A DNA stretch of 25,905 bases, taken from IMG/VR virus record IMGVR_UViG_3300026455_000051, positions 1 through 25,905 of that record. One strand, given 5' to 3'. This DNA is from a virus. The notes under the pieces were generated by a model. It was not told the DNA's origin, ran no database searches, and saw only the letters and a program-made list of their open reading frames with translations. Positions within the stretch are counted from its first letter, which is position 1, and the number at the start of each line of letters is the position of its first letter. A program made the position numbers and the translations under genes. This document shows positions 1 to 14,912 of the stretch, piece after piece.

Positions 1-2609
1 GAAAAACCGCTGTTGCTCGTATCGATGTAAAAAGCACCTATAATGATTTCCGCATTTGCTCCTGATCCAGAGGTAGGATTGTTAGAAAATGAATTATTTA
101 AGTTCCTTCCAAACCCACTGATGTTGTCAGTCACGATGTAAACACCATCGGTACAGTAGCTGGAATTGTTGGCATATCCCTGATATTTGGTTCCAAATGG
201 CTTGAATTGATTCTTGGGTTTATGTCCCGGAAGTATTCCATTTTTGTAAGCCGAATAACTGTTTTCACTGGAATAAAACCAATAAACATCCACGGCTTTG
301 TAATTTTGTCCCGGATAATAATCCATGTAATCTAAAAGATAATTTCCAAAATAATAAGGTGATATGTCCATGTCGCTAATGGGGGTGTCCGATGGATAAT
401 TGCTGTATTGGACATTCAATTGACCATAAGCCAAAAGGTTACGATTGGGATCGTATATCTTCAACGAATTGGCTCTCTTATAAGTTTCAATCCGAAACCA
501 ACCGTCTCCAAAGCCTCGTTCACCAAATTTATCCTCGGCAACATAGGCATCCAAGAATGTACATTCTGATCCACTATTGGTTTGAATTTTCATGGTAAAT
601 TGCGGTTTATCCATGTCCGGATAACGCACATTAGTTCTTGACCACAATTTTCCATTTAAAATAGTTGGAGAACCTCTGTCGCTAGTCAGTCCAATAATGA
701 TATTGGAAGTCTGATCATTCCATTCAAAGGTTGAATTGCCAGTCCATCCAGTACCATAATAATCACTTTGAAAAGCTGGTTGGCCAAAACCGGCATAATT
801 GAAATACGCAAGTTTTTCCGCAGAAGAATTCACTGACCTAGAGGCAACGCATGGAGTCAATCCTTCCACTGCCATGTAGGAAGGCTGATACAGAGAATCA
901 AGGTTTGGGCTATAAATCGAAAACAAGGAAGAGGTAGGATAATTTCCAAAATAATAGCCTGTAAAAGCATATTCAAAAATAGCGTCTAGAAAATAATACT
1001 GCCACCATTGAGGAGGTGCTGGGTCTAAATTTGGATCAAGATACTGCTCATAAGGTTGCACATAATCATGGGCAATAATTGGTGTTTCAAATTGATAGTA
1101 AGCTTTAAATACTTCATTGTATTGTGGATAACTGTATCCAACCTTAAACGACAATTCTCTGTATTCCAATGGCCGAACATTCTGTGGGTAGGCGATAAAT
1201 CTTTTGACATCACTGATATTCGGTATTGAGGAAAGGTCTGGAAAATTCTTTCTTTTAAAAGTCACTTCCACATCAACCACCGTTCCACGGGAATGGAACG
1301 ACAGGGTTTTCCCAACAGACTTACCGTTAGCATCGCTTGGAATTACATCGTATTTGTTTCCATAGGAAATAATGACATTCTTGTAAGTGTATTTGCAGTA
1401 TCCACCCGGATAATTTTCCACTACAGGTCTGGATTGCGTTAAATAAAATGCTGCTTTTTTATAAGGGAATGATTCCAGTCTTTGATAATATCCATACCAA
1501 CCCCACCAATAATAAAATCCAAAATAAGGAGATACTCCAATTTGGCCAGTAATTCTGTTGTAATAAGACCAATACGGAACTACGAAATCTGTTCGACCAT
1601 AATCATTCATCCATGGCCAATAACTGTATGTGTATGGAACACATACATTGTCCATTGGTGTCATGATGTAATCCATGCCAAATGGATAATAAGTGCCTGT
1701 TTCACCATAAACCGGATACCAATTAATTGAGCAATAGGAAAAACAATATGGCCTTAAAATAATGTTGTAGCCATCAAAGGTAGCACCAGCGATTACGAAT
1801 CCAGTCGTGTATTCCAAATAATCACGAAATTCATTGTACGGCTGCTGCACAAACTGATAGGACTGAAAATCGATCTGTGTTCCTGCCGGAAAATACATCA
1901 AAATATATGGACTTAAATAAGACACATAATCTGTTTCGTAATAAGTAACCGGACTCAATCCAGAAAGGTTGGTTCGCTTTGAAAACAAATGAATTGGACT
2001 GGTTGTTCCATACCCCCAGTAACTCCCATCAATCACATAATGCCTGAAATCGGCATTTGTCAACTGAATCAACCAAGAGGTTGGATACGCTCCGGAATAT
2101 CCATAATAAAAACCATGGCTCCAGTAATTAGACCACCATTCGTACCAATCATCGTAATAATCATTAGGGTTGTAGTTTAATTGGGGAATAACGGTTTGTT
2201 TTTGTCCTTCAAACGCATCAAAATGCCAGATGTTATTAGGCTGACGAATGACCTGTTCATCAGAAGTAATAGAGTACCCGTAGGTTCCATCGTATGAAGC
2301 AACTATGGGAGATATTTCCTTGTTGCAGTATTCGTAAGAAATCATCTGTAAAGAAAATTCGCACGGTGAACCAGCGGAACCATTGACCTGATACACCGTC
2401 TTTGTGGATGGTTCTTCCCACATCCAGTTTCCATTCGGTATCACACGCATCTGGACATCTTCTGTAGCGTCCACAATATCGACATTGTAGATGGAACCCT
2501 GAACGCTTTTTAACTGCAAACCATCAGGAACAAAGATATCAGACTGCTGCTGAATTTGCTGTTCAGAATAATGATCTGGAAACTGAGTATAAATGCTGGG
2601 TGTAAACAT
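1..2609 (-). CDS. Very tyrosine-rich large protein, partial (C-terminus off left edge)
   Basis: An ATG at 2609 opens a frame with no stop down to the left edge, at least 869 codons; I translated it line by line. The start lies one base after the TAA of the upstream gene and has no clear Shine-Dalgarno, so coupled initiation is likely. Composition is extraordinary: by hand count about 106 Tyr (12%) and 23 Trp, with much Pro, Gly, Asn, Ser and Phe. Dense patches include YYDDWYEWWSNYW near residue 150 and NYLLDYMDYYPGQNY near residue 765. Residues about 430-470 are nearly free of Tyr and may be a separate folded segment. The motif YYFGNY occurs twice, 200 codons apart. I see no signal peptide or membrane segment. 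It follows a fibre-like gene, so a virion surface or adhesion protein is the natural guess, but I do not recognise the family. Confidence 0.85.
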   Translation of the reverse strand, partial: MFTPSIYTQFPDHYSEQQIQQQSDIFVPDGLQLKSVQGSIYNVDIVDATEDVQMRVIPNGNWMWEEPSTKTVYQVNGSAGSPCEFSLQMISYEYCNKEISPIVASYDGTYGYSITSDEQVIRQPNNIWHFDAFEGQKQTVIPQLNYNPNDYYDDWYEWWSNYWSHGFYYGYSGAYPTSWLIQLTNADFRHYVIDGSYWGYGTTSPIHLFSKRTNLSGLSPVTYYETDYVSYLSPYILMYFPAGTQIDFQSYQFVQQPYNEFRDYLEYTTGFVIAGATFDGYNIILRPYCFSYCSINWYPVYGETGTYYPFGMDYIMTPMDNVCVPYTYSYWPWMNDYGRTDFVVPYWSYYNRITGQIGVSPYFGFYYWWGWYGYYQRLESFPYKKAAFYLTQSRPVVENYPGGYCKYTYKNVIISYGNKYDVIPSDANGKSVGKTLSFHSRGTVVDVEVTFKRKNFPDLSSIPNISDVKRFIAYPQNVRPLEYRELSFKVGYSYPQYNEVFKAYYQFETPIIAHDYVQPYEQYLDPNLDPAPPQWWQYYFLDAIFEYAFTGYYFGNYPTSSLFSIYSPNLDSLYQPSYMAVEGLTPCVASRSVNSSAEKLAYFNYAGFGQPAFQSDYYGTGWTGNSTFEWNDQTSNIIIGLTSDRGSPTILNGKLWSRTNVRYPDMDKPQFTMKIQTNSGSECTFLDAYVAEDKFGERGFGDGWFRIETYKRANSLKIYDPNRNLLAYGQLNVQYSNYPSDTPISDMDISPYYFGNYLLDYMDYYPGQNYKAVDVYWFYSSENSYSAYKNGILPGHKPKNQFKPFGTKYQGYANNSSYCTDGVYIVTDNISGFGRNLNNSFSNNPTSGSGANAEIIIGAFYIDTSNSGF

Positions 2610-2610
2610 A

Positions 2611-3771
2611 TTATGGCAGGGGATACCAACCCCTCACTCCATTGGAATCGGTTCCGTAATACATATTAGCCCCCGGATTTTCCATGTCATTCTTGAGTTT
2701 TATAGTAATGCCATTGTAATAGCTTCCCGTGATGTCTAGCGACATATTTGCATTGGATATTCCCTGTGAACCAGTAAAAACACCAGAGGAACTAATAAGG
2801 AGCAGCGATGAGCCAGTGGCAGGAGGTGTTGGCCATTGAACACCCACATTGGAACTGTTGATGTAATAAAATGCACCAGAACCATTAGTGGCTAAAAGCT
2901 GATTTGGATTCCCGTAATTCTTTGGAGTATCCAACAGGTCAGTCAATCTTAATGATTGGGATTGCTGGTATAGGATAGCAGTGTATTCGTCAGGGCAAAA
3001 GGTGGCATAACTAAAAACGAGTGTCCCGCCATTGTTGGTTGCATTGGTCACAACCTTGATGGCATTCGGGCCGGAACTTCCCTGTTTGATACACAACACC
3101 AGTGGTCGTTCATCGTTGTAATCCAAGGCGTTTGGATTGATTGGATTACCTGGGTTCCAATAACCAACAGCAAAACCCTGGTATACTTTTCCTGGAAGAA
3201 GCGGAGAGCCATTCTGTTCAATCGCCCAGACATTTCCGGCATTGCCACCAGAAGCCACCACTGGATTTGCATATGGATTGATGCTGCAAACAGTGGCAGA
3301 ATACTTGGAATTGTACATGACAGGCCCACCACCCTGAGCCTCATCAATCCTAATGAAATAACGATTGTTCGGATTTGTTCCGCACCAGAAATAAAATATT
3401 TCTCTTCCATCCGATGGATCAACACCCATAGACAAGGCTGGCACTATGCATCCATATTCTGGAGTATGGTCATTCAGCATCTGATTTGCATCTTTGCGAT
3501 CAAAGATGAATGGCATCGGAAATGCCTTTGGCCCCTTGGTCTGATTGTCCTGATTTAGTTTTACCCCGCCTTCCTTATCAATGAATATGCTGCCATTCCA
3601 CTCGACTTCCTGAAAGAAGTAATAGTAAATGTTCTGGTCGTTGGTATCCACCCTTCCAAAAATCTTCAGCCATATCCATGACGGAGAATCATTGCTGACA
3701 ACAAATGAATTCGTGGAGGAATCCCACGAAGCATTCATTCCATTTCCAATTTCTGGTTGCATATTTGGCAT
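2611..3771 (-). CDS. Fibre-like virion protein, 386 aa
   Basis: The ATG at 3771 has a GAGG element six bases upstream. It is the first gene after the terminator at 3783-3813, so it is expressed by read-through or from its own promoter. The N-terminal two thirds are beta-rich with many Asn, Gly, Tyr and Trp and no motif I can name. The last 120 residues look like phage fibre sequence: LTDLLDTPKNYGNPNQLLA, then a Gly/Ser/Asn-rich stretch, ending in YYGTDSNGVRGWYPLP, a tail often seen at the end of phage fibre and appendage proteins. The stop is one base from the start of the tyrosine-rich gene, so the two probably form one unit. The fibre role rests on the C-terminus and position only; the receptor or attachment partner is unknown. 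Confidence 0.75.
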   Translation of the reverse strand: MPNMQPEIGNGMNASWDSSTNSFVVSNDSPSWIWLKIFGRVDTNDQNIYYYFFQEVEWNGSIFIDKEGGVKLNQDNQTKGPKAFPMPFIFDRKDANQMLNDHTPEYGCIVPALSMGVDPSDGREIFYFWCGTNPNNRYFIRIDEAQGGGPVMYNSKYSATVCSINPYANPVVASGGNAGNVWAIEQNGSPLLPGKVYQGFAVGYWNPGNPINPNALDYNDERPLVLCIKQGSSGPNAIKVVTNATNNGGTLVFSYATFCPDEYTAILYQQSQSLRLTDLLDTPKNYGNPNQLLATNGSGAFYYINSSNVGVQWPTPPATGSSLLLISSSGVFTGSQGISNANMSLDITGSYYNGITIKLKNDMENPGANMYYGTDSNGVRGWYPLP

Positions 3772-3782
3772 GACAAACCTCT

Positions 3783-3813
3783 AAAAAAACAGGGTGACTT
3801 TTTAGCCACCCTG
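3783..3813 (-). terminator. Rho-independent terminator
   Basis: Read on the minus strand, CAGGGTGGC and GTCACCCTG form a nine-pair stem (one G-T pair) with a six-base loop, followed by seven T. It sits between the 89-residue gene ending at 3842 and the gene starting at 3771, so it would end the long upstream transcript or attenuate entry into the last two genes. Confidence 0.85.
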
Positions 3814-3841: not shown

Positions 3842-4111
3842 TTATTCTTCCAAAAGAATTACCATTGCTGCCATCAGTTGAGGAATATTGGCAAATCCTG
3901 TCAAGGGAGCCTTGATAAGACTTTTTGCCAAATCCTTGCTTGGTTTCAACGGAGGTGGGAGAGTTTTTAACATGAAATCGTAAAACAATTTCAATGCCTC
4001 ATCTCTTCCAATCTCATTGTCCGTAAATTTGATGAATTGAGCCATTATAGGCTCAATCTGTTTCATCATTTCCTGAGCAGGATTGCTAGGATTTACTGGA
4101 GCATTAGACAT
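3842..4111 (-). CDS. Small helical protein, 89 aa, unknown function
   Basis: The ATG at 4111 is preceded by AGGAAAAAT, a usable ribosome site. The product is mostly alpha-helical and mildly acidic at the start, with NPAQEMMKQIEPIMAQFIKF near the N-terminus, a PPPLKPSKD turn in the middle and a hydrophobic C-terminus (FANIPQLMAAMVILLEE). That last stretch is too short and too acidic at its end for a confident membrane segment. It is the last gene before the terminator at 3783-3813 and lies 12 bases after the CANGQCG protein. I do not recognise the family. Confidence 0.7.
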   Translation of the reverse strand: MSNAPVNPSNPAQEMMKQIEPIMAQFIKFTDNEIGRDEALKLFYDFMLKTLPPPLKPSKDLAKSLIKAPLTGFANIPQLMAAMVILLEE

Positions 4112-4382: not shown

Positions 4383-5354
4383 TTATAGCGTCCAATCGAT
4401 CTTTCGGGCAGGGTAACCGTCAAAATTACTGAAAGCAAATACTTCCTCGTTACAAATCTTGTCCATGTCCGAAGCTTTCATCCAGTAACTTCCCTTGGGT
4501 TCGCCATAATTGCCAGGAGGTGTTCCATGAGCATTCCCCCAAGAATTCTGGATCAAAAATATCAGGCCAAATTCAGGATGATCGGTGTAACCCAAGCAAG
4601 ATTGCTGATGACCCCATGCATCGGACTTCTTGGCCAATTGAACCGATGGTGTACCTGAAGGTTGAACTTTCAGGGAATTAAATCCCCACCATCCGGAAGC
4701 AATAGTCACAGGATACCCGTTTCGCAGGGCAGCTTTTACTTCTTTGGAATTACTCAACTGACTGGTGGAATTGACTCGGAACTTGTTGGCCACGGAAAAC
4801 AAGTCTCTAGGCGGTTTGTCTCCATTCGACCATTTGTATTCGACATCAGCACCAAAAGTCCAAGAACCATCGTTCTGTTTTACTGGTTGTGGAAGATCAG
4901 ACTCAATTGGAGGAACACCATCAATACGGCAAGATTCAGCCATGGACGATCCAAAAGAACCGTCACCAGTACCATGTAAACCACCACGCTTACGAGATTG
5001 CCCATAATTAAACAAAAAGAACGGTAGTTTCCATTGTTCATAGGTTTGGCCTTGTGTGACAATTTCCACGGCCTGTAGGGTCGCCATAACGGCTAATGCA
5101 CCATGTCCTACACATGAGCCGGTCTTTTGATCCCATGGGAAAAACTCATATCCACAGGCTTTGTTGACCACCTTGTATAGTAAAGCCTCTTTTACATCGG
5201 CATCCTCTCCAGTGATCTCAAAAGGCTTTAAGGATGACCTGAAAGCCTGTCGTTGTACCTCTGGAAGATCACTGATTGGCTTCCAGCCAAAGTTCCAATT
5301 GTTGATGAAATTGTTGTGATGCTGCCTTCCACCCCACTTGATGTAATCAATCAT
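4383..5354 (-). CDS. Papain-like (C1 family) cysteine protease, 323 aa
   Basis: The catalytic triad of a papain-type protease is visible: Cys81 in KTGSCVGHGA with an upstream Gln76 as likely oxyanion residue, His249 in AWGHQQSCLGY, and Asn270 in IQNSWG. Segments between them (GDGSFGSSMAESCRIDGVPP, then GYPVTIASGWWGFNS) also fit bacterial C1 peptidases. The 80 residues before Cys81 may be a short propeptide or structural extension; there is no signal peptide. The start ATG overlaps the stop of the Ig-like protein gene as ATGA, so the two are made together. In a phage it could cut virion proteins, help entry, or digest host envelope protein during lysis; the sequence does not decide. Fold and active site are secure, role is inference. 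Confidence 0.9.
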   Translation of the reverse strand: MIDYIKWGGRQHHNNFINNWNFGWKPISDLPEVQRQAFRSSLKPFEITGEDADVKEALLYKVVNKACGYEFFPWDQKTGSCVGHGALAVMATLQAVEIVTQGQTYEQWKLPFFLFNYGQSRKRGGLHGTGDGSFGSSMAESCRIDGVPPIESDLPQPVKQNDGSWTFGADVEYKWSNGDKPPRDLFSVANKFRVNSTSQLSNSKEVKAALRNGYPVTIASGWWGFNSLKVQPSGTPSVQLAKKSDAWGHQQSCLGYTDHPEFGLIFLIQNSWGNAHGTPPGNYGEPKGSYWMKASDMDKICNEEVFAFSNFDGYPARKIDWTL

Positions 5355-7359: not shown

Positions 7360-10300
7360 TTAGCACCAAAATGAACCTTCCAATATTGCCTGAATATATG
7401 TTGTTCCAGATGTTCCATATTCCAACATTGTGCAATAATGATAACCTAGGCAACTTCCACTTCGTATAGTGTATGCTCTTCCAGCACGGCCAGTCATATC
7501 CACGCTGTCATATCCTGGTGTACCACCATCAAAAGCAGCACCTTGACTAGCATAACCACCAGATGACGCACAACTAAAATTAACAACAGTATTCCTGTCC
7601 AAACCATTAACAAAATGGACAGACATGGCAGAGTCGTTATTCCAATTTCTCCATGAAGCAGTAGTGTAAGGATGCCCTGTATATGCGTAGGTTGGATATG
7701 TATTTTTGTACAAGAGTCTTTCAACAGGATTATTCATATTCCAAACAAAACGCTTGGCTAAAGAATCCTCGGTGGTGGTAGTCGATGTGGTTCTAAATGT
7801 TCCAAGATATCGTCTTGTGGTCGCAGAACTTTTAACATAAACACCATTTGTTAGCGTAATAGCATCTGTCCTTGCGGTGTCACTTGTCCATGCTGCCGAA
7901 AGTTCGAGTGTCAGCGTTCCTGCATTATTATAAATGAAAACATCATAATTTTTCCCAGAAGTTAAAGTTCCTAAAGCCAACGATCTTTCTGTAAATGTGT
8001 AAGTCGCCCAATTAGTTCCGTCATAAAGACTTATACGATCACCATTGTAAGGTGTATAGTAAATCGTAGTTGCACTTGTTACATCCGAAGTAGTTACAGG
8101 TGTTCCGCTAGTAAGGGTAAGTCTACCACCGGAAAACAAACCTTGGTTTACCCATGTCGGACTTGATGCACCAGCACTTGTAAGCACTTGTCCAGATGTT
8201 CCAGCAGCAGTCAAAGCTAAAGCCGAAGCTGTGCTATATGCTACCGCTCCATTTACAGCAGTTAAGTTCGCATTAGTTCCACCGTATGCCAGAGCAATTT
8301 GACCAGAAGCAATATCTGAGGCAACAACCGTATCCCATGCTGGTGCAGCACCGTTTGTTCCTGACCCAGTTTGACGGAGAAACTTTTTGGTAGTGGTGGT
8401 ATTTGGACTCAAAAGAGTTGTCGTGTTGCTGTTAGACTGATATGGTATCGATCCAAGTAGCGTTGTGCTATTTCCACCAGCAAGACTGGTAATGTAATTT
8501 GTCCAACTTAGGTTTCCAGAACCGTCCGTTTTTAAGACATAGTTATTTGTGCCAGCAGTTGTTGGAAGAGTTAAAGTATAATTTGTTGATATAGTCGCCG
8601 GAGCTTGAATTGCAGCATAATTGCTTGAATCTGCATCAGCAAAACGCACATCGGCCTGTGCATTTAAATAAAGATTTCCGGTGGCATCAAAATAACTGTA
8701 TACAGTTGTGCCAAGGTAATCCCGAAGTTCCAACAGTGGATATGTCTGTCCGTTAGCTGCAAAAATTCCAAAAACACCAACGGCACCATTTGCCGAATAT
8801 AAAGCCAACGCATCATATGCGGAAGAACCATACGAAAAATTGGAAGTCGCAGTAAAATTACCTGATCCATCGTTGTACTGAATGTCTCCATTTGAACCGG
8901 CAGCACTTGCACCACCAGCGGTTGTCCATGACAGTGTTCCTGTACCATTTGTAGACAGTACCTGGCCTGAAGTGCCGTCTGTAGAAGGATAGGTCAAACT
9001 ATTGATGACGGTGGTTCCAGAAACGGTCAACGCACTAAGAGTTCCAACTGTGGTGATATTTGACGATCCAGCCCATGTGCTTAAAGCCGTGTTTTCCACG
9101 CTGGACAATCCCACATCCGTCTTAGTGACGGTATCCCAAGCAGGAGCAGCAGATACCGTGCCTGTGCCGGTTTGACGCAAGAATTTGCGTGTAGTGGTTG
9201 TATTTCCGGAAAGTTTGGCCAATGTATTGCTGGCCGAAGAATATAGCGTATCGCCCAATGTGTAGGTGGTTTGTCCGGTTCCACCCTTGGTTGCACCTAC
9301 GGTGGCAAGAGTCGTTGTAATCGCCGTACTTCCAGAACCTGTTACATCACCCGATAAAGTAATGGTTTGGTTCGCCGTCAAATAAGTGCTAGTGTCCAGC
9401 GAGAATGTTCCAGATGCGGTCATTTTTACAAAAGATGCGGAAACATAAGTCAGGCCGGAAAGAGAGGTCAGGTTTGTGGATGATGCCTGACCACCTAAGC
9501 CTGCCAATGTATAGGTTGGAACATTTAATGTGTTGGAAACCAGTGTGGCTGATCCACTGGAACCCGTTGTGGTTAATGAAGTGATACGGTTTGTATAGGC
9601 CGTATCCCAGTTGGTCTGACTTGAAGTTGTTGGGATGGAATATCCAGCGGTAAAGCTGAAAACACCAGTTGTGTTGGTGTATGTCAATCCAGTAGCTGTT
9701 GAAGAAAGATCAGTTAATTTGATTCCACCAAGCCCAGCCAGAGTATATGTTGGAACATTCAGTGTATTTGAAACTAATGTCGCAGAACCACTGGAACCAG
9801 TAGTGGTTAAGCTGGTTATTCGATTGGCGTATGCCGTATCCCAATTGGTCTGAGAGGCAGAGGTTGGAAGTGCATATCCTGTATCCATAGACAAAGCTAT
9901 GGTTCCACTTCCTGTGATTGGAGAATTGGTCACCTTCATGCCGGTTGGTGCCGAAAGTCCCACGGAAGTGACAGTTCCTGATCCACCACCGGAAGCATTG
10001 ATCGTAAAATTAGGATAGGTTCCTGTGATTGTGATATTGGTTCCAGAGTTCAAAACTACTGTCTGATCGGGGGAAGAGTTAGTTATCACTCCAGTGGATG
10101 AACTGTAGGAAATTCCAGCTCCAGCAGACACCGATGCTCTTGATCTTGCATCGGTATAATACAGGTTAGTTCCCTCAGAAATGCTGCTGGTGGTTCCTGC
10201 GACATTTTCCCAAAGTTTGGTGGTCGAGTTGTAACGAAGGATATTGTTGGGTGCAACGCTGGTAATCGATACATCGTGGATTTCATCCAGTTCGTATCCG

Positions 10301-12273
10301 TTCTGGATTTTCACCTCAACCACACCTTGGGTTGGATGACTGCGAACTACGATGCCAACATACACAAGGTGGCTTGGTGCTGCCGGCTTGGTCGTTGTCC
10401 ATGCTCCAGCAGTGGTTGGGGACAGATACAGTTGAGTCCCTGCGGAATAGGATTGTGTATCAATGTCGGTTAGTCTTCCAGAAACAACCACATATCCATT
10501 GGACTGATCGGATGTATTACTCTGAATAATGCCATATGTCTGTGCCGAATTTGTATCGTTGTTGGCTTGGGCCTTGGTGACCGTTGGCAAATTTCCTTGG
10601 CCACCATTGATGTAAACAACCGTGCCTTTTGTCAGAGTTGCCCCAGTTGAATTATAAATTTCTGTGACGAGATTTAATGCCTGATCTATTGTGGTTGGGA
10701 AGGTCTTGAGACTTCCATCTCCGGTCACATACTCCGAACCTTTTCCAGAGAAATTAACACCTATATCTCCACTGGTGGTAATCGGTGTATTGGTGATCGT
10801 CAAAGCAGAAGCAGTTGTGGATATGCCAACGGAAGTTACAGTTCCGCTTCCAGAAGTACCAGTGTAATCAATCGTAAAGTTCGGATAAGTCCCTGTGACG
10901 GATATATCCGTTCCACCAGTCAATGAAACAACTTGATCTGGAGAGTCGTTGGTAATTACACCAGTTGTATTGTCATAACTAATACCAGTTCCTGCGGATA
11001 ACGCTTTTCTGGCATCGGAATCTGTGTATTGGGTGATCGTGCAATCAATGGTGAAGTCAGGATAAGTCCCAGTTACGGAGATTCCATTTCCAGAAGTTAG
11101 TGAAACAATCTGGTCAGGGGCCGTATTATTGATCGTATAATCGGGTGCAGTTCCGGTCAGGGATATATCCGTTCCGGCAGTGATGGAATTTACCGGATAA
11201 CTGATAGCAACATTCTGAATTCCAGTCACTATGCCTTTATCATTTACCGTCACTTCTGCCACATTGGAACCGTTACCATATGCCCCAGCAGTAATGGATT
11301 GAGTATTCAATTCCAATCCAATAAATCCAGAAGTTGTTATGGGTGAATTAGTGACCGTCAAATCTTGAGAAGAAACGCCAACACTGTAGACAGTACCTCC
11401 TGAGCCACCACCTCCAGTGGCATAGCCATCAAACAGCAAATGCACGATATCATTGCTGTCACGCATATAACCTTTGCGATCTGCCACATTGATGGCAAAC
11501 TCATTGATTTCCAAATCGGTATATGCTGGAACAGAACCGGCAATATAGGATCGTTTTGGCTTAACAGGAATTGGAGGGTTTGGGTTGCCAGCATTTGGTT
11601 GAAAAAACAACTGATTGGAATTAACCGCATTTAAGGCAAGAATAGTTGATTCAAAATGCAGATAAAATAATCCGTTACCAGTAATAATTAGATTAGTAAA
11701 AGTGGCAACGCCATTGGTTGTAGATACGGTATCAGTTCCAGTTAATGTTGCTGTTCCGGATAGTACAACCAAAGAAACTTGCACATCAGTTTCATAATTT
11801 GTTAACACATTACCAAATTGGTCTTTGATTCCAACTGATGGTTGTGGACTCAATAGACTTCCAGAAGACACTAATCCCGGCTGATTAATGACATACAAAC
11901 TGTTTGGAACAGATGGCGGAGGTGACCCACCATCGTCATAATACGCACTACCATTCATTGATGCCGGTGATTCATCATATGTGTCTATTTGGATAGATAT
12001 TGTTGATCCAGCAGAAACATTTAATGCAGAATTGAAAAACCAAATGCTAGTTGAATTCTGAAATATTCCAATTCCAGCCTGAATTATTCTTGCCTCGTTT
12101 TCTTGATTTGCATATCCAGACAAATCCAAGTAACAAACACCATCAGTTGATGCATAAAAATTTATGTCTGCTGTCAAATTACCTGTAGCAGAAAGATAAA
12201 TAACGAATGGATCGTTTTGTGTCCCTGATCCTGAATATGCAATTCCACTTGCAGAAGTTACCGTAAATGCCAT
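7360..12273 (-). CDS. Long modular tail fibre protein, 1637 aa
   Basis: I use the ATG at 12273, which overlaps the upstream stop as TAATG; a TTG two codons earlier is less likely. Residues 1-110 are an unknown beta-rich head domain. Residues about 125-226 resemble a bacterial Ig-like (Big-1 type) domain, with IKDQFGNVLTNYETDVQVSL and TTNGVATFTNLIITG. Residues about 244-283 (SVPAYTDLEINEFAINVADR and onward) match the short segment that often opens phage fibre shafts. Then follow many Gly/Thr/Ser-rich shaft repeats of the GTVTSVG..TPITTSG type, two almost identical 78-residue units, and two copies of the KFLRQTGTGT..APAWDTV motif. The last 100 residues are distinct and end in a YHYCTMLEYGTSGTT segment with a terminal SFWC, probably the receptor-binding tip. 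It should bind the host surface; the receptor is unknown. Confidence 0.9.
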   Translation of the reverse strand: MAFTVTSASGIAYSGSGTQNDPFVIYLSATGNLTADINFYASTDGVCYLDLSGYANQENEARIIQAGIGIFQNSTSIWFFNSALNVSAGSTISIQIDTYDESPASMNGSAYYDDGGSPPPSVPNSLYVINQPGLVSSGSLLSPQPSVGIKDQFGNVLTNYETDVQVSLVVLSGTATLTGTDTVSTTNGVATFTNLIITGNGLFYLHFESTILALNAVNSNQLFFQPNAGNPNPPIPVKPKRSYIAGSVPAYTDLEINEFAINVADRKGYMRDSNDIVHLLFDGYATGGGGSGGTVYSVGVSSQDLTVTNSPITTSGFIGLELNTQSITAGAYGNGSNVAEVTVNDKGIVTGIQNVAISYPVNSITAGTDISLTGTAPDYTINNTAPDQIVSLTSGNGISVTGTYPDFTIDCTITQYTDSDARKALSAGTGISYDNTTGVITNDSPDQVVSLTGGTDISVTGTYPNFTIDYTGTSGSGTVTSVGISTTASALTITNTPITTSGDIGVNFSGKGSEYVTGDGSLKTFPTTIDQALNLVTEIYNSTGATLTKGTVVYINGGQGNLPTVTKAQANNDTNSAQTYGIIQSNTSDQSNGYVVVSGRLTDIDTQSYSAGTQLYLSPTTAGAWTTTKPAAPSHLVYVGIVVRSHPTQGVVEVKIQNGYELDEIHDVSITSVAPNNILRYNSTTKLWENVAGTTSSISEGTNLYYTDARSRASVSAGAGISYSSSTGVITNSSPDQTVVLNSGTNITITGTYPNFTINASGGGSGTVTSVGLSAPTGMKVTNSPITGSGTIALSMDTGYALPTSASQTNWDTAYANRITSLTTTGSSGSATLVSNTLNVPTYTLAGLGGIKLTDLSSTATGLTYTNTTGVFSFTAGYSIPTTSSQTNWDTAYTNRITSLTTTGSSGSATLVSNTLNVPTYTLAGLGGQASSTNLTSLSGLTYVSASFVKMTASGTFSLDTSTYLTANQTITLSGDVTGSGSTAITTTLATVGATKGGTGQTTYTLGDTLYSSASNTLAKLSGNTTTTRKFLRQTGTGTVSAAPAWDTVTKTDVGLSSVENTALSTWAGSSNITTVGTLSALTVSGTTVINSLTYPSTDGTSGQVLSTNGTGTLSWTTAGGASAAGSNGDIQYNDGSGNFTATSNFSYGSSAYDALALYSANGAVGVFGIFAANGQTYPLLELRDYLGTTVYSYFDATGNLYLNAQADVRFADADSSNYAAIQAPATISTNYTLTLPTTAGTNNYVLKTDGSGNLSWTNYITSLAGGNSTTLLGSIPYQSNSNTTTLLSPNTTTTKKFLRQTGSGTNGAAPAWDTVVASDIASGQIALAYGGTNANLTAVNGAVAYSTASALALTAAGTSGQVLTSAGASSPTWVNQGLFSGGRLTLTSGTPVTTSDVTSATTIYYTPYNGDRISLYDGTNWATYTFTERSLALGTLTSGKNYDVFIYNNAGTLTLELSAAWTSDTARTDAITLTNGVYVKSSATTRRYLGTFRTTSTTTTEDSLAKRFVWNMNNPVERLLYKNTYPTYAYTGHPYTTASWRNWNNDSAMSVHFVNGLDRNTVVNFSCASSGGYASQGAAFDGGTPGYDSVDMTGRAGRAYTIRSGSCLGYHYCTMLEYGTSGTTYIQAILEGSFWC
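9496..9879 (-). repeat. Tandem 234-bp fibre repeat (two copies)
   Basis: Two copies, at 9730-9879 and 9496-9645, are offset by exactly 234 bp (78 codons). Both encode ITSLTTTGSSGSATLVSN followed by TLNVPTYTLAGLGG, and are preceded by SQTNWDTAY. The proteins are nearly identical while many third positions differ, so the duplication is old and held by selection on the protein. Confidence 0.8.
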
Positions 12274-13412
12274 TACCAAGTACCCCCGTCAGAGTACACC
12301 CAAACCAGTTGATTCGAGTTGTTGTAAGTTAAAACTTGAGATGTCAGACCACCGGAAGGAATACTACTTCCGTTTGCTGCGGATGTTATTCTTCCATATT
12401 CATCCACCGTGATATCCGCAGATGTGTATGATCCTGCTGTAACCCCTGTTGTAGGCAATCCAATATCTATATCTCCAGCACTGGTGATCGGAGAAAACTG
12501 GATAGCAATCGTGTCATTCATCGAGATGATGCCAACACTTGTTACAGTTCCAGTTCCAGTTCCAATACTTATGTTGGTAGCCTCAACAATTCTTCCCTTG
12601 TCATCAATCGTAATGACGGGAACTTCAGTGCTACTTCCATACAGTCCTGCAACCACACCTGTTGATTGCATTTCAATGTCTATTTGTCCAACCGATGTGA
12701 TGGGGGAACCACTAACCTGAAGCGTATTGGAAACAACACTAACACTGGAAACACTTCCTGTTCCAGCACCACTGATGGATACCGAAGAAACATCCGTAAT
12801 CACACCACGGCTGTTGATCGTGACCACAGGGATGGAATTACTGGTTCCATAAGTTCCCGGAGTCAAACTTTGTGTCTTTAGGTTTGCAGTTATTGTTCCA
12901 GCGGTTGTGATAGTCGGATTGGTGATTGTCAAATCCGAGGATGCCAAGGTGATGCTGGACACCGTTCCTATAACGCCTGGAGCCAAAGCGAGAGGTGATG
13001 CGGATGTTCCGTCACCCGTCAGGGTATTATCATGCTGAACCTTGGAAATATAAGTCGAGGACAAGTCTGGCAAATCCGTTATTGTCAAGGCACGGAATGA
13101 TGGAACCCCCTGACTTCCATCTGGAGTCGCCAGCACTAGATTTGCATTTTGGCTTTTGAATGCGACATTAAAATCACCCTGACCATTGGCAGGACTTCCC
13201 GTGACGGTGAACACGGAAGTTGGCATGGTCAGGCCAATGGCAATGTCCATGTTCGTGTTCGTGGCGTAACGAAACACTACGGCATCACCCTGGCCATTGA
13301 TGGTAACTTCTGAAACAGGGTCGGTGATCGCAGGAATGTACTGGTCAGAACTGGGAACAGCACTGACCTTGATTTGATCAACTATGACCGTATTGATGAT
13401 GTCCTGAGCCAT
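12273..13412 (-). CDS. Fibre or fibre-anchor protein with three ~66-residue repeats, 379 aa
   Basis: The ATG at 13412 is preceded by AGGAGACACG. Residues 1-140 contain strand-rich segments and a fibre-type stretch (FRALTITDLPDLSSTYISK). Residues about 145-345 are three successive repeats of about 66 residues, each running GTV.SV....LTI...PITTAG.I..L.T.....G.YG....P.ITVD..GRIT. The third is slightly shorter. The C-terminus GLTSQVLTYNNSNQLVWVYS resembles the closing segment of many fibre shafts. The same repeat occurs once more in the neighbouring long fibre, near its residues 295-360, so the two proteins probably share a fold and assemble together. Stop and next start overlap as TAATG, implying matched synthesis. 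Confidence 0.85.
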   Translation of the reverse strand: MAQDIINTVIVDQIKVSAVPSSDQYIPAITDPVSEVTINGQGDAVVFRYATNTNMDIAIGLTMPTSVFTVTGSPANGQGDFNVAFKSQNANLVLATPDGSQGVPSFRALTITDLPDLSSTYISKVQHDNTLTGDGTSASPLALAPGVIGTVSSITLASSDLTITNPTITTAGTITANLKTQSLTPGTYGTSNSIPVVTINSRGVITDVSSVSISGAGTGSVSSVSVVSNTLQVSGSPITSVGQIDIEMQSTGVVAGLYGSSTEVPVITIDDKGRIVEATNISIGTGTGTVTSVGIISMNDTIAIQFSPITSAGDIDIGLPTTGVTAGSYTSADITVDEYGRITSAANGSSIPSGGLTSQVLTYNNSNQLVWVYSDGGTW

Positions 13413-13778: not shown

Positions 13779-14912
13779 TCACTTCATAGTAGCCGGATCA
13801 CCAAAAAACATCAACTGAAAAGGATAGGAGTCATAGACTGGTTTCCATCGCAAATTGTCGGCAAAAGTGTTTTCTGTGTTGGTTACCATTGGGTAATATT
13901 TTTGATTTCCAAGATAAAGACCTAAATTGTGTCCACGGTATACATAACTACCGTTGTATGAACTGCGTTCAACCGAATAATCAGTTTCATATCCAACATA
14001 AAGAAGCTTAAAGGTTATATCAGCATACAGAAAATCGGTCAGTCCCCATCCAGATTGAAGTGGATTCAAGGTGCTGAAATTTCCACCGAAGAAGTTCCTT
14101 GTATATTCCTTAGATTCAATGCCAGTGAACAGCAATTCACCCGGCCCAAAACCTAGAAATTCAATCTGGTTGACTCTTCCTAATCCGTTGTAAATGTTTT
14201 CACATTGAGGACTGGTAGGAAAAATGAAATTGTAGGGAACTTGATGCCAAGTCATATTCAATACGGTTTTAGGCAGCAATGTCTTGCCACTAAATCCGGG
14301 GAATGGCTTGGTGTTTACACTAGGGCTATCAGAAAGAAATTCAAAATTTCCTGCTTTAATGGTCACATATTCGGCAGCAACCGATGTCTTGTAAGAAACA
14401 TAACGGTAAAACTCATTAGAAACATTTTGTATTGTGGTAAGTGTTCCATTGTCTTTTGCATAAACAAGGGGGCTGAAAGTGATTAAATCATCACCAAAGA
14501 CAAAATACGGCATTGGCGTAAACACTACGGTGATTTCATATTTATCGTAAGAACCAAAGTAGGATGGTATTTTTTGATAACTTTTGTCACCGTCAGTGCT
14601 GACATATTGCATTCTTGAATTAATGCCATTGTCGTCACGCTTAAGACCTATACCACGCACATTGGAAATACTGGAAGCATACATCCAGCGAAAGTACGGA
14701 TGAGCCATTGGCATATTTCGGCCAATGAGTGCCGTGGTTTTCATATAGGAACTAGGAAACACGGTGTTCAGAAAGGCATCCACCTCTCCGGATGAACCCA
14801 TTGGCCCTTCCACAATATAGGTCATGGTCGCAGAAGCATTCCCATCAATTCCAAAGGATGAATCTGCCGGTGATGTACTTCCGATTCTTTCTTTAAGATC
14901 ATTTACATTCAT
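13779..14912 (-). CDS. Distal tail or tail-tip protein, 377 aa
   Basis: The ATG at 14912 overlaps the tape measure stop as TAATG. The gene lies directly after the tape measure, where siphoviruses keep distal tail and tip proteins. The sequence is beta-rich with many aromatic residues (RWMYASSISNVRGIGLK, IPSYFGSYDKYEITVVFTPM, TWHQVPYNFIFP) and no recognisable enzyme motif or membrane segment. TWHQVPYNFIFP and a preceding LLPKTVLN hint at a jelly-roll or OB-like core, but this is only impression. The role rests on position; I cannot assign it to the distal tail (Dit) or tail-associated lysin family from sequence. Confidence 0.75.
   Translation of the reverse strand: MNVNDLKERIGSTSPADSSFGIDGNASATMTYIVEGPMGSSGEVDAFLNTVFPSSYMKTTALIGRNMPMAHPYFRWMYASSISNVRGIGLKRDDNGINSRMQYVSTDGDKSYQKIPSYFGSYDKYEITVVFTPMPYFVFGDDLITFSPLVYAKDNGTLTTIQNVSNEFYRYVSYKTSVAAEYVTIKAGNFEFLSDSPSVNTKPFPGFSGKTLLPKTVLNMTWHQVPYNFIFPTSPQCENIYNGLGRVNQIEFLGFGPGELLFTGIESKEYTRNFFGGNFSTLNPLQSGWGLTDFLYADITFKLLYVGYETDYSVERSSYNGSYVYRGHNLGLYLGNQKYYPMVTNTENTFADNLRWKPVYDSYPFQLMFFGDPATMK

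Follow-up and report, generated by a model that had tools for sequence, protein, structure and literature searches.

A tyrosine-rich phage protein encoded at the end of an exchanged gene block as a candidate for host recognition

The DNA analyzed here (the window, 25,905 bases) belongs to a tailed phage and ends on its left side within a gene for a very tyrosine-rich protein. Among related phages, this gene is the conserved last gene of a block of about 5 kb that is swapped wholesale, and its product, which we call type A, most likely helps the phages grip their hosts. We think it rather probable that the protein recognizes the host through tyrosine-rich loops at the virion surface, and we infer with this its presence in the virion, its surface exposure, and its contact with a receptor. 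If the loops bind, they would constitute a case of large-scale natural Tyr-rich recognition beyond antibodies and retroelement-diversified proteins.

Within the window, the minus-strand frame is free of stops from its ATG to the edge (3-2609, 869 codons); as the window spans an entire IMG/VR record, nothing but the end of the contig truncates it. A second contig, IMGVR_UViG_3300024503_000616, represents the same phage (1 mismatch in 12,609 bases, 99.99% identical) and supplies the missing part. There, the frame, for which the earlier note had considered a break beyond the edge, continues intact to a normal stop, yielding a complete protein of 1140 amino acids (aa), the full length that the note had sought to the left of the window. 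The 869-aa part contains 106 Tyr (12.2%), 23 Trp, and 51 Phe, and our recount of Tyr and Trp gave exactly the figures estimated before. The complete protein contains 143 Tyr (12.5%), 26 Trp, and 65 Phe, with aromatic residues at 20.5%, and has a calculated mass of 132 kDa, a pI of 4.6, and a net charge of -46. By comparison, Tyr accounts for 3.9% in the 22 other window genes tested, and 3.1% would be expected from positional base composition; at the 3.9% rate, at least 143 Tyr in 1140 residues would occur with a probability of 8e-34. The codon usage of the gene matches that of the other genes.

Searches of Pfam, the PHROGs, PDB sequences, and 50,697 phage records returned no match to the protein at the thresholds used, neither to a family of ordinary composition nor to any recognizable receptor-binding, glycan-binding, or tail domain, which agrees with the earlier remark that no phage family resembles it. 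No close isolate of the phage group is among the records searched. A pattern scan of bacterial and archaeal genomes, one for each species, which finds only relatives carrying the searched peptides, retrieved none, and in the literature Mtd was the only Tyr-rich phage tail protein for which we found a paper. Since there is no sequence homology to a known receptor-binding protein (RBP), we describe type A as a protein that would work like an RBP, not as a member of an RBP family. An AlphaFold2 model of the full protein built from six sequences reached a pLDDT of 27.6 and was discarded.

Full-length relatives of 1113-1166 aa were found in IMGVR 3300005805_006784, 3300007992_000851, 3300007555_000042, 3300024346_000234, 3300027782_000222, and 3300020172_003695, and a partial one in 3300007972_000301. 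Since 3300007555_000042 and 3300024346_000234 carry identical copies, the distinct relatives are five full-length proteins and one partial protein. They share 31-49% identity with the window protein, varying with the method, and all six occupy the same slot, with Tyr at 11.2-12.5% and aromatics at 18-20%. The dN/dS values were 0.13-0.29 in the Tyr-rich segments and 0.12-0.21 elsewhere, indicating that type A proteins are real, constrained proteins under purifying selection. Given the shared slot, the similar Tyr content, and this selection, the high-Tyr composition is a conserved trait.

To describe where the tyrosines lie, the type A alignment was scanned in 25-column windows. Tyr density correlated negatively with conservation (rho -0.49, p 3e-4) and positively with gaps (rho 0.42); among 13 other residues, only Asn showed a negative trend at p <0.05, weaker than that of Tyr. 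By column class, Tyr made up 17.4% of gapped, 12.1% of invariant, and 10.9% of variable ungapped columns. The protein is laid out as conserved framework blocks (e.g., residues ~435-484, 690-711, 802-825, 871-895, 970-994, and 1076-1140) alternating with Tyr-rich, indel-prone variable blocks. Tyr-rich variable surfaces have a well-known role in recognition (PMC3567102, PMC5077188); Tyr reaches up to 25% of antibody complementarity-determining regions (CDRs) and is enriched in selected variants of Mtd (PMC3567102). The placement of Tyr in variable segments supports a possible binding role. It is very improbable that the Tyr-rich segments instead arose merely through TAT/TAC slippage where loops tolerate change under relaxed constraint, devoid of any binding role. 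Mostly-TAT runs do occur: the one in L072 consists of six TAT and one TAC, and L068 has a mixed run of eight codons. The Tyr-rich segments also diverge faster. On the other side, these segments have the dN/dS values given above, their TAT/TAC use is mixed, and Tyr is just as frequent in invariant columns.

The earlier note had proposed a sticky appendage, a pi-stacking fiber, or a receptor-binding surface. Tyr-rich elastic and adhesive proteins are exemplified by resilin and the mussel foot proteins. Unlike these, type A is repeat-free and acidic, and its conservation follows the style of folded domains: neither tandem or internal repeats nor internal self-similarity nor a strong Tyr periodicity was detected in the protein. 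A repetitive elastic, pi-stacking, or cross-linked adhesive fiber would suit 12.5% Tyr and 20.5% aromatics, but the lack of repeats largely refutes it, and Tyr lies in divergent segments, so we rejected this reading as having hardly any likelihood left. Of the earlier proposals, the elastic or pi-stacking fiber finds no support, and the best supported is a virion surface that binds a receptor or is sticky.

The gene lies in the late region of a tailed phage, marked by a portal protein (PF05136) and major-tail-like proteins (phrog_1407). Minus-strand late genes lead toward a 1639-aa fiber-like gene (7360-12279) and then to a group encoding HNH and papain-like proteins, which is followed by a small gene, a terminator-like hairpin, a 386-aa fiber-like gene, and the Tyr-rich gene (Table 1). 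On the longer contig, two opposite-strand genes and then the terminase genes come next, the large terminase matching phrog_2. The earlier description of the Tyr-rich gene as lying just after a fiber-like gene and behind its own terminator was correct in that it directly follows a fiber-like gene; the hairpin, however, precedes the 386-aa gene. The start codon of the Tyr-rich gene lies one base after the stop of this partner gene, and by this spacing the two form one unit. The partner gene, of ~390 aa, is present in 17 of 30 related records. The C-terminus of its window copy matches phrog_36859, a family of unknown function, and relatives match phrog_11660, a tail protein family (best E 3.7e-12). 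A model of the 386-aa protein (pLDDT 48) gave no usable Foldseek match, the best viral one being an uncharacterized phage protein at TM <0.5. A short AGGGG/CCCCT inverted repeat (2613-2635, minus strand) is situated before the Tyr-rich start, within the end of the 386-aa gene, and may affect coupled translation.

Table 1. Positions in the window of the Tyr-rich gene and associated features
Feature	Position	Strand	Remark
Tyr-rich protein (type A), residues 1-869 of 1140	1..2609	-	remainder on IMGVR_UViG_3300024503_000616 (L003:10001-13423)
386-aa fiber-like partner	2611..3771	-	N-terminal ~140 residues common to all cassette types
Terminator-like hairpin	3790..3813	-	10-bp stem + T7; upstream of two-gene unit
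Small 89-aa gene, first in exchanged block	3842..4111	-	
Left block boundary	4098..4098	.	window similarity to type B phage G003 stops

Comparison of related genomes revealed that DNA directly flanking the ~5-kb block is 85-97% identical and that nearly all similarity is gone across it, with boundaries falling at the same gene ends between genomes. In the slot, sister phages carry either a second protein family (type B) or four smaller proteins (type C). When a type A contig (L071) was compared with a type B contig (L078), identity was 85.9% up to position 2863, at the small gene; within the block, only 54 bp were similar, where the partner gene ends; and identity of 97.1% resumed at 7868 and continued for 4 kb. 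Position 7868 is some 10 bases or less from the end of the Tyr-rich gene, whose stop is at 7878. Between the window phage and this same type B phage (G003), similarity ends at window position 4098 on one side and immediately beyond the Tyr-rich gene on the other. The same boundaries were found between type A L068 and both type B (L097, L101, and L112) and type C (L079 and L080), similarity returning, at 85-91% identity, where the Tyr-rich gene ends or up to ~30 bases before. That one place holds different blocks while its flanks are similar or near-identical points to recombination of a functional unit. In phages, host-recognition modules are recombination-prone and known to be exchanged this way (PMC10579305), and features of such modules are found here, namely, a gene block swapped between otherwise similar phages and a fiber or tail protein alongside. 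Near-identical genomes that differ in one ~5-kb block represent a natural experiment, which predicts the genes that set host specificity. Exchange of the block also fits other adaptive surface functions.

Type B proteins, of which 14 sequences were used in an alignment (A10), are about 980-1424 aa long with 7.2-10% Tyr. Type A and type B share a homologous C-terminal domain (hhalign E 1.6e-7 for whole profiles and 2.9e-11 for the block; hmmsearch E 3.4e-4, with column-shuffled controls far weaker). The middle blocks align collinearly (E 8e-4), and no match was detectable between the N-terminal ~380 residues. In type C phages, the partner is reduced to its N-terminal ~140 residues, and the four smaller proteins were matched by neither the type A nor the type B profile. 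Among 518 ORFs of at least 300 aa (median, 3.1% Tyr), the highest ranks were held by proteins of types A and B and by partners.

Several further features of the type B cassettes were observed. The C-terminal ~45 residues form a near-invariant Cys-rich tail in proteins otherwise 25-40% identical (e.g., L098:1261-4545), with the motif CxHIGKVIDRKxCNCPKKW...C...H...TDWKxCMxC, a possible zinc-binding or attachment module. In G023, an extra 272-aa open frame (L097:2543-3358, plus strand) lies between the type B gene and a convergent 171-aa gene and is missing from relatives whose flanks are the same. Virion-structural PHROGs are matched by some of the type B and partner proteins, type B matching head closure, baseplate wedge, and virion structural families. 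A glycine-rich GGSGYTSAP-like repeat is inserted only in the type B proteins of L100, L101, L116, and L126 and in some partners, and members with this insert probably account for the matches. We tentatively read the matches as due to this repeat insert and not as homology of the type B core to these families.

The system resembles the host-recognition module of the Alteromonas phages A5 and V22 (PMC10579305) in being a co-transferred gene block with a fiber-like protein, a block that phages of otherwise similar genome lack or replace with an unrelated one. It differs in that the large protein here is Tyr-rich and lacks a recognizable tail-fiber or receptor-binding domain, and in that the A5/V22 module is common to distant phages, whereas here close relatives carry alternative modules. 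Mtd, the RBP of a Bordetella phage diversified by a diversity-generating retroelement (DGR) (PMC3567102), would share with type A, if our reading is right, a Tyr-enriched variable binding surface. Unlike Mtd, type A is much larger and varies by ordinary divergence and block exchange. Reverse transcriptase (PF00078) was absent from 13 related records, which are possibly fragments, and a control was detected in 3 of 14 genomes; a DGR origin was rejected on this absence. Antibody CDRs and Tyr-rich synthetic binders (PMC3567102, PMC5077188) likewise combine Tyr-rich variable segments with a more conserved framework, an analogy of composition and not of homology.

In the mechanism that we propose, the Tyr-rich protein would be made jointly with the 386-aa fiber-like protein from their two-gene unit, and this unit is exchanged between phages inside the ~5-kb block. 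The conserved framework segments presumably fold as beta-type domains, and the Tyr/Asn/Gly/Trp-rich variable segments between them would form exposed loops. These could contact a host receptor or a surface glycan, in the way of antibody CDRs and selected Mtd variants. The product of the 1639-aa fiber-like gene could be the main receptor binder instead. We regard as speculative, and on balance unlikely, a broader view in which a phage protein superfamily evolved, without a retroelement, a scaffold that displays many Tyr-rich recognition loops of CDR-like composition and adapts by cassette swaps (A, B, and C) and loop divergence.

Two other roles must be weighed. The protein may decorate the virion head or tail, its Tyr-rich surface attaching weakly to polysaccharide, biofilm, or particles in general and not to a specific receptor. 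The composition and the acidic pI of 4.6 are consistent with this role, as are the other large fiber-like gene already in the genome and the inserted repeats that some type B and partner proteins have in common with virion-structural PHROGs. That the block is replaced in its entirety by versions with little or no relationship to it, however, suits a specificity determinant better, and we hold general adhesion to be a less likely alternative. Less likely still is a non-virion protein that acts in the infected cell, e.g., in phage exclusion or cell-surface modification, the block being swapped for that reason. The position of the block, beyond the peptidase-like/HNH group, adjoining the terminase genes, and behind a terminator-like hairpin, would accord with such a role, but the coupled partner has tail-family relatives, the protein is large and conserved, and inspection revealed no obvious signal peptide. 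Host recognition at the virion surface thus remains the reading that we prefer.

A few observations concern the host and the remaining genes. An 8.5-kb contig with a type B cassette (L129, CAMDNC010000148.1) was binned in a Flavipsychrobacter MAG, a possible but weak host clue, as it is a lone contig of this phage group's genes and may be misbinned. Shine-Dalgarno-like motifs precede about half of the window genes, which does not favor a Bacteroidota host. A 323-aa protein (4383-5354, minus strand), kept across the phage group at 66-98% identity, carries papain-like Cys/His/Asn motifs (GSCV, WGHQQ, and QNSWG); its profile found no match in PHROG or Pfam and matched the cysteine protease structure 3ois weakly (E 0.004). 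Downstream of an 870-aa, probable tape-measure gene, a 377-aa protein (13779-14912, minus strand) contains 8.0% Tyr and 7.4% Phe, and Tyr amounts to 7.8% in its relatives.
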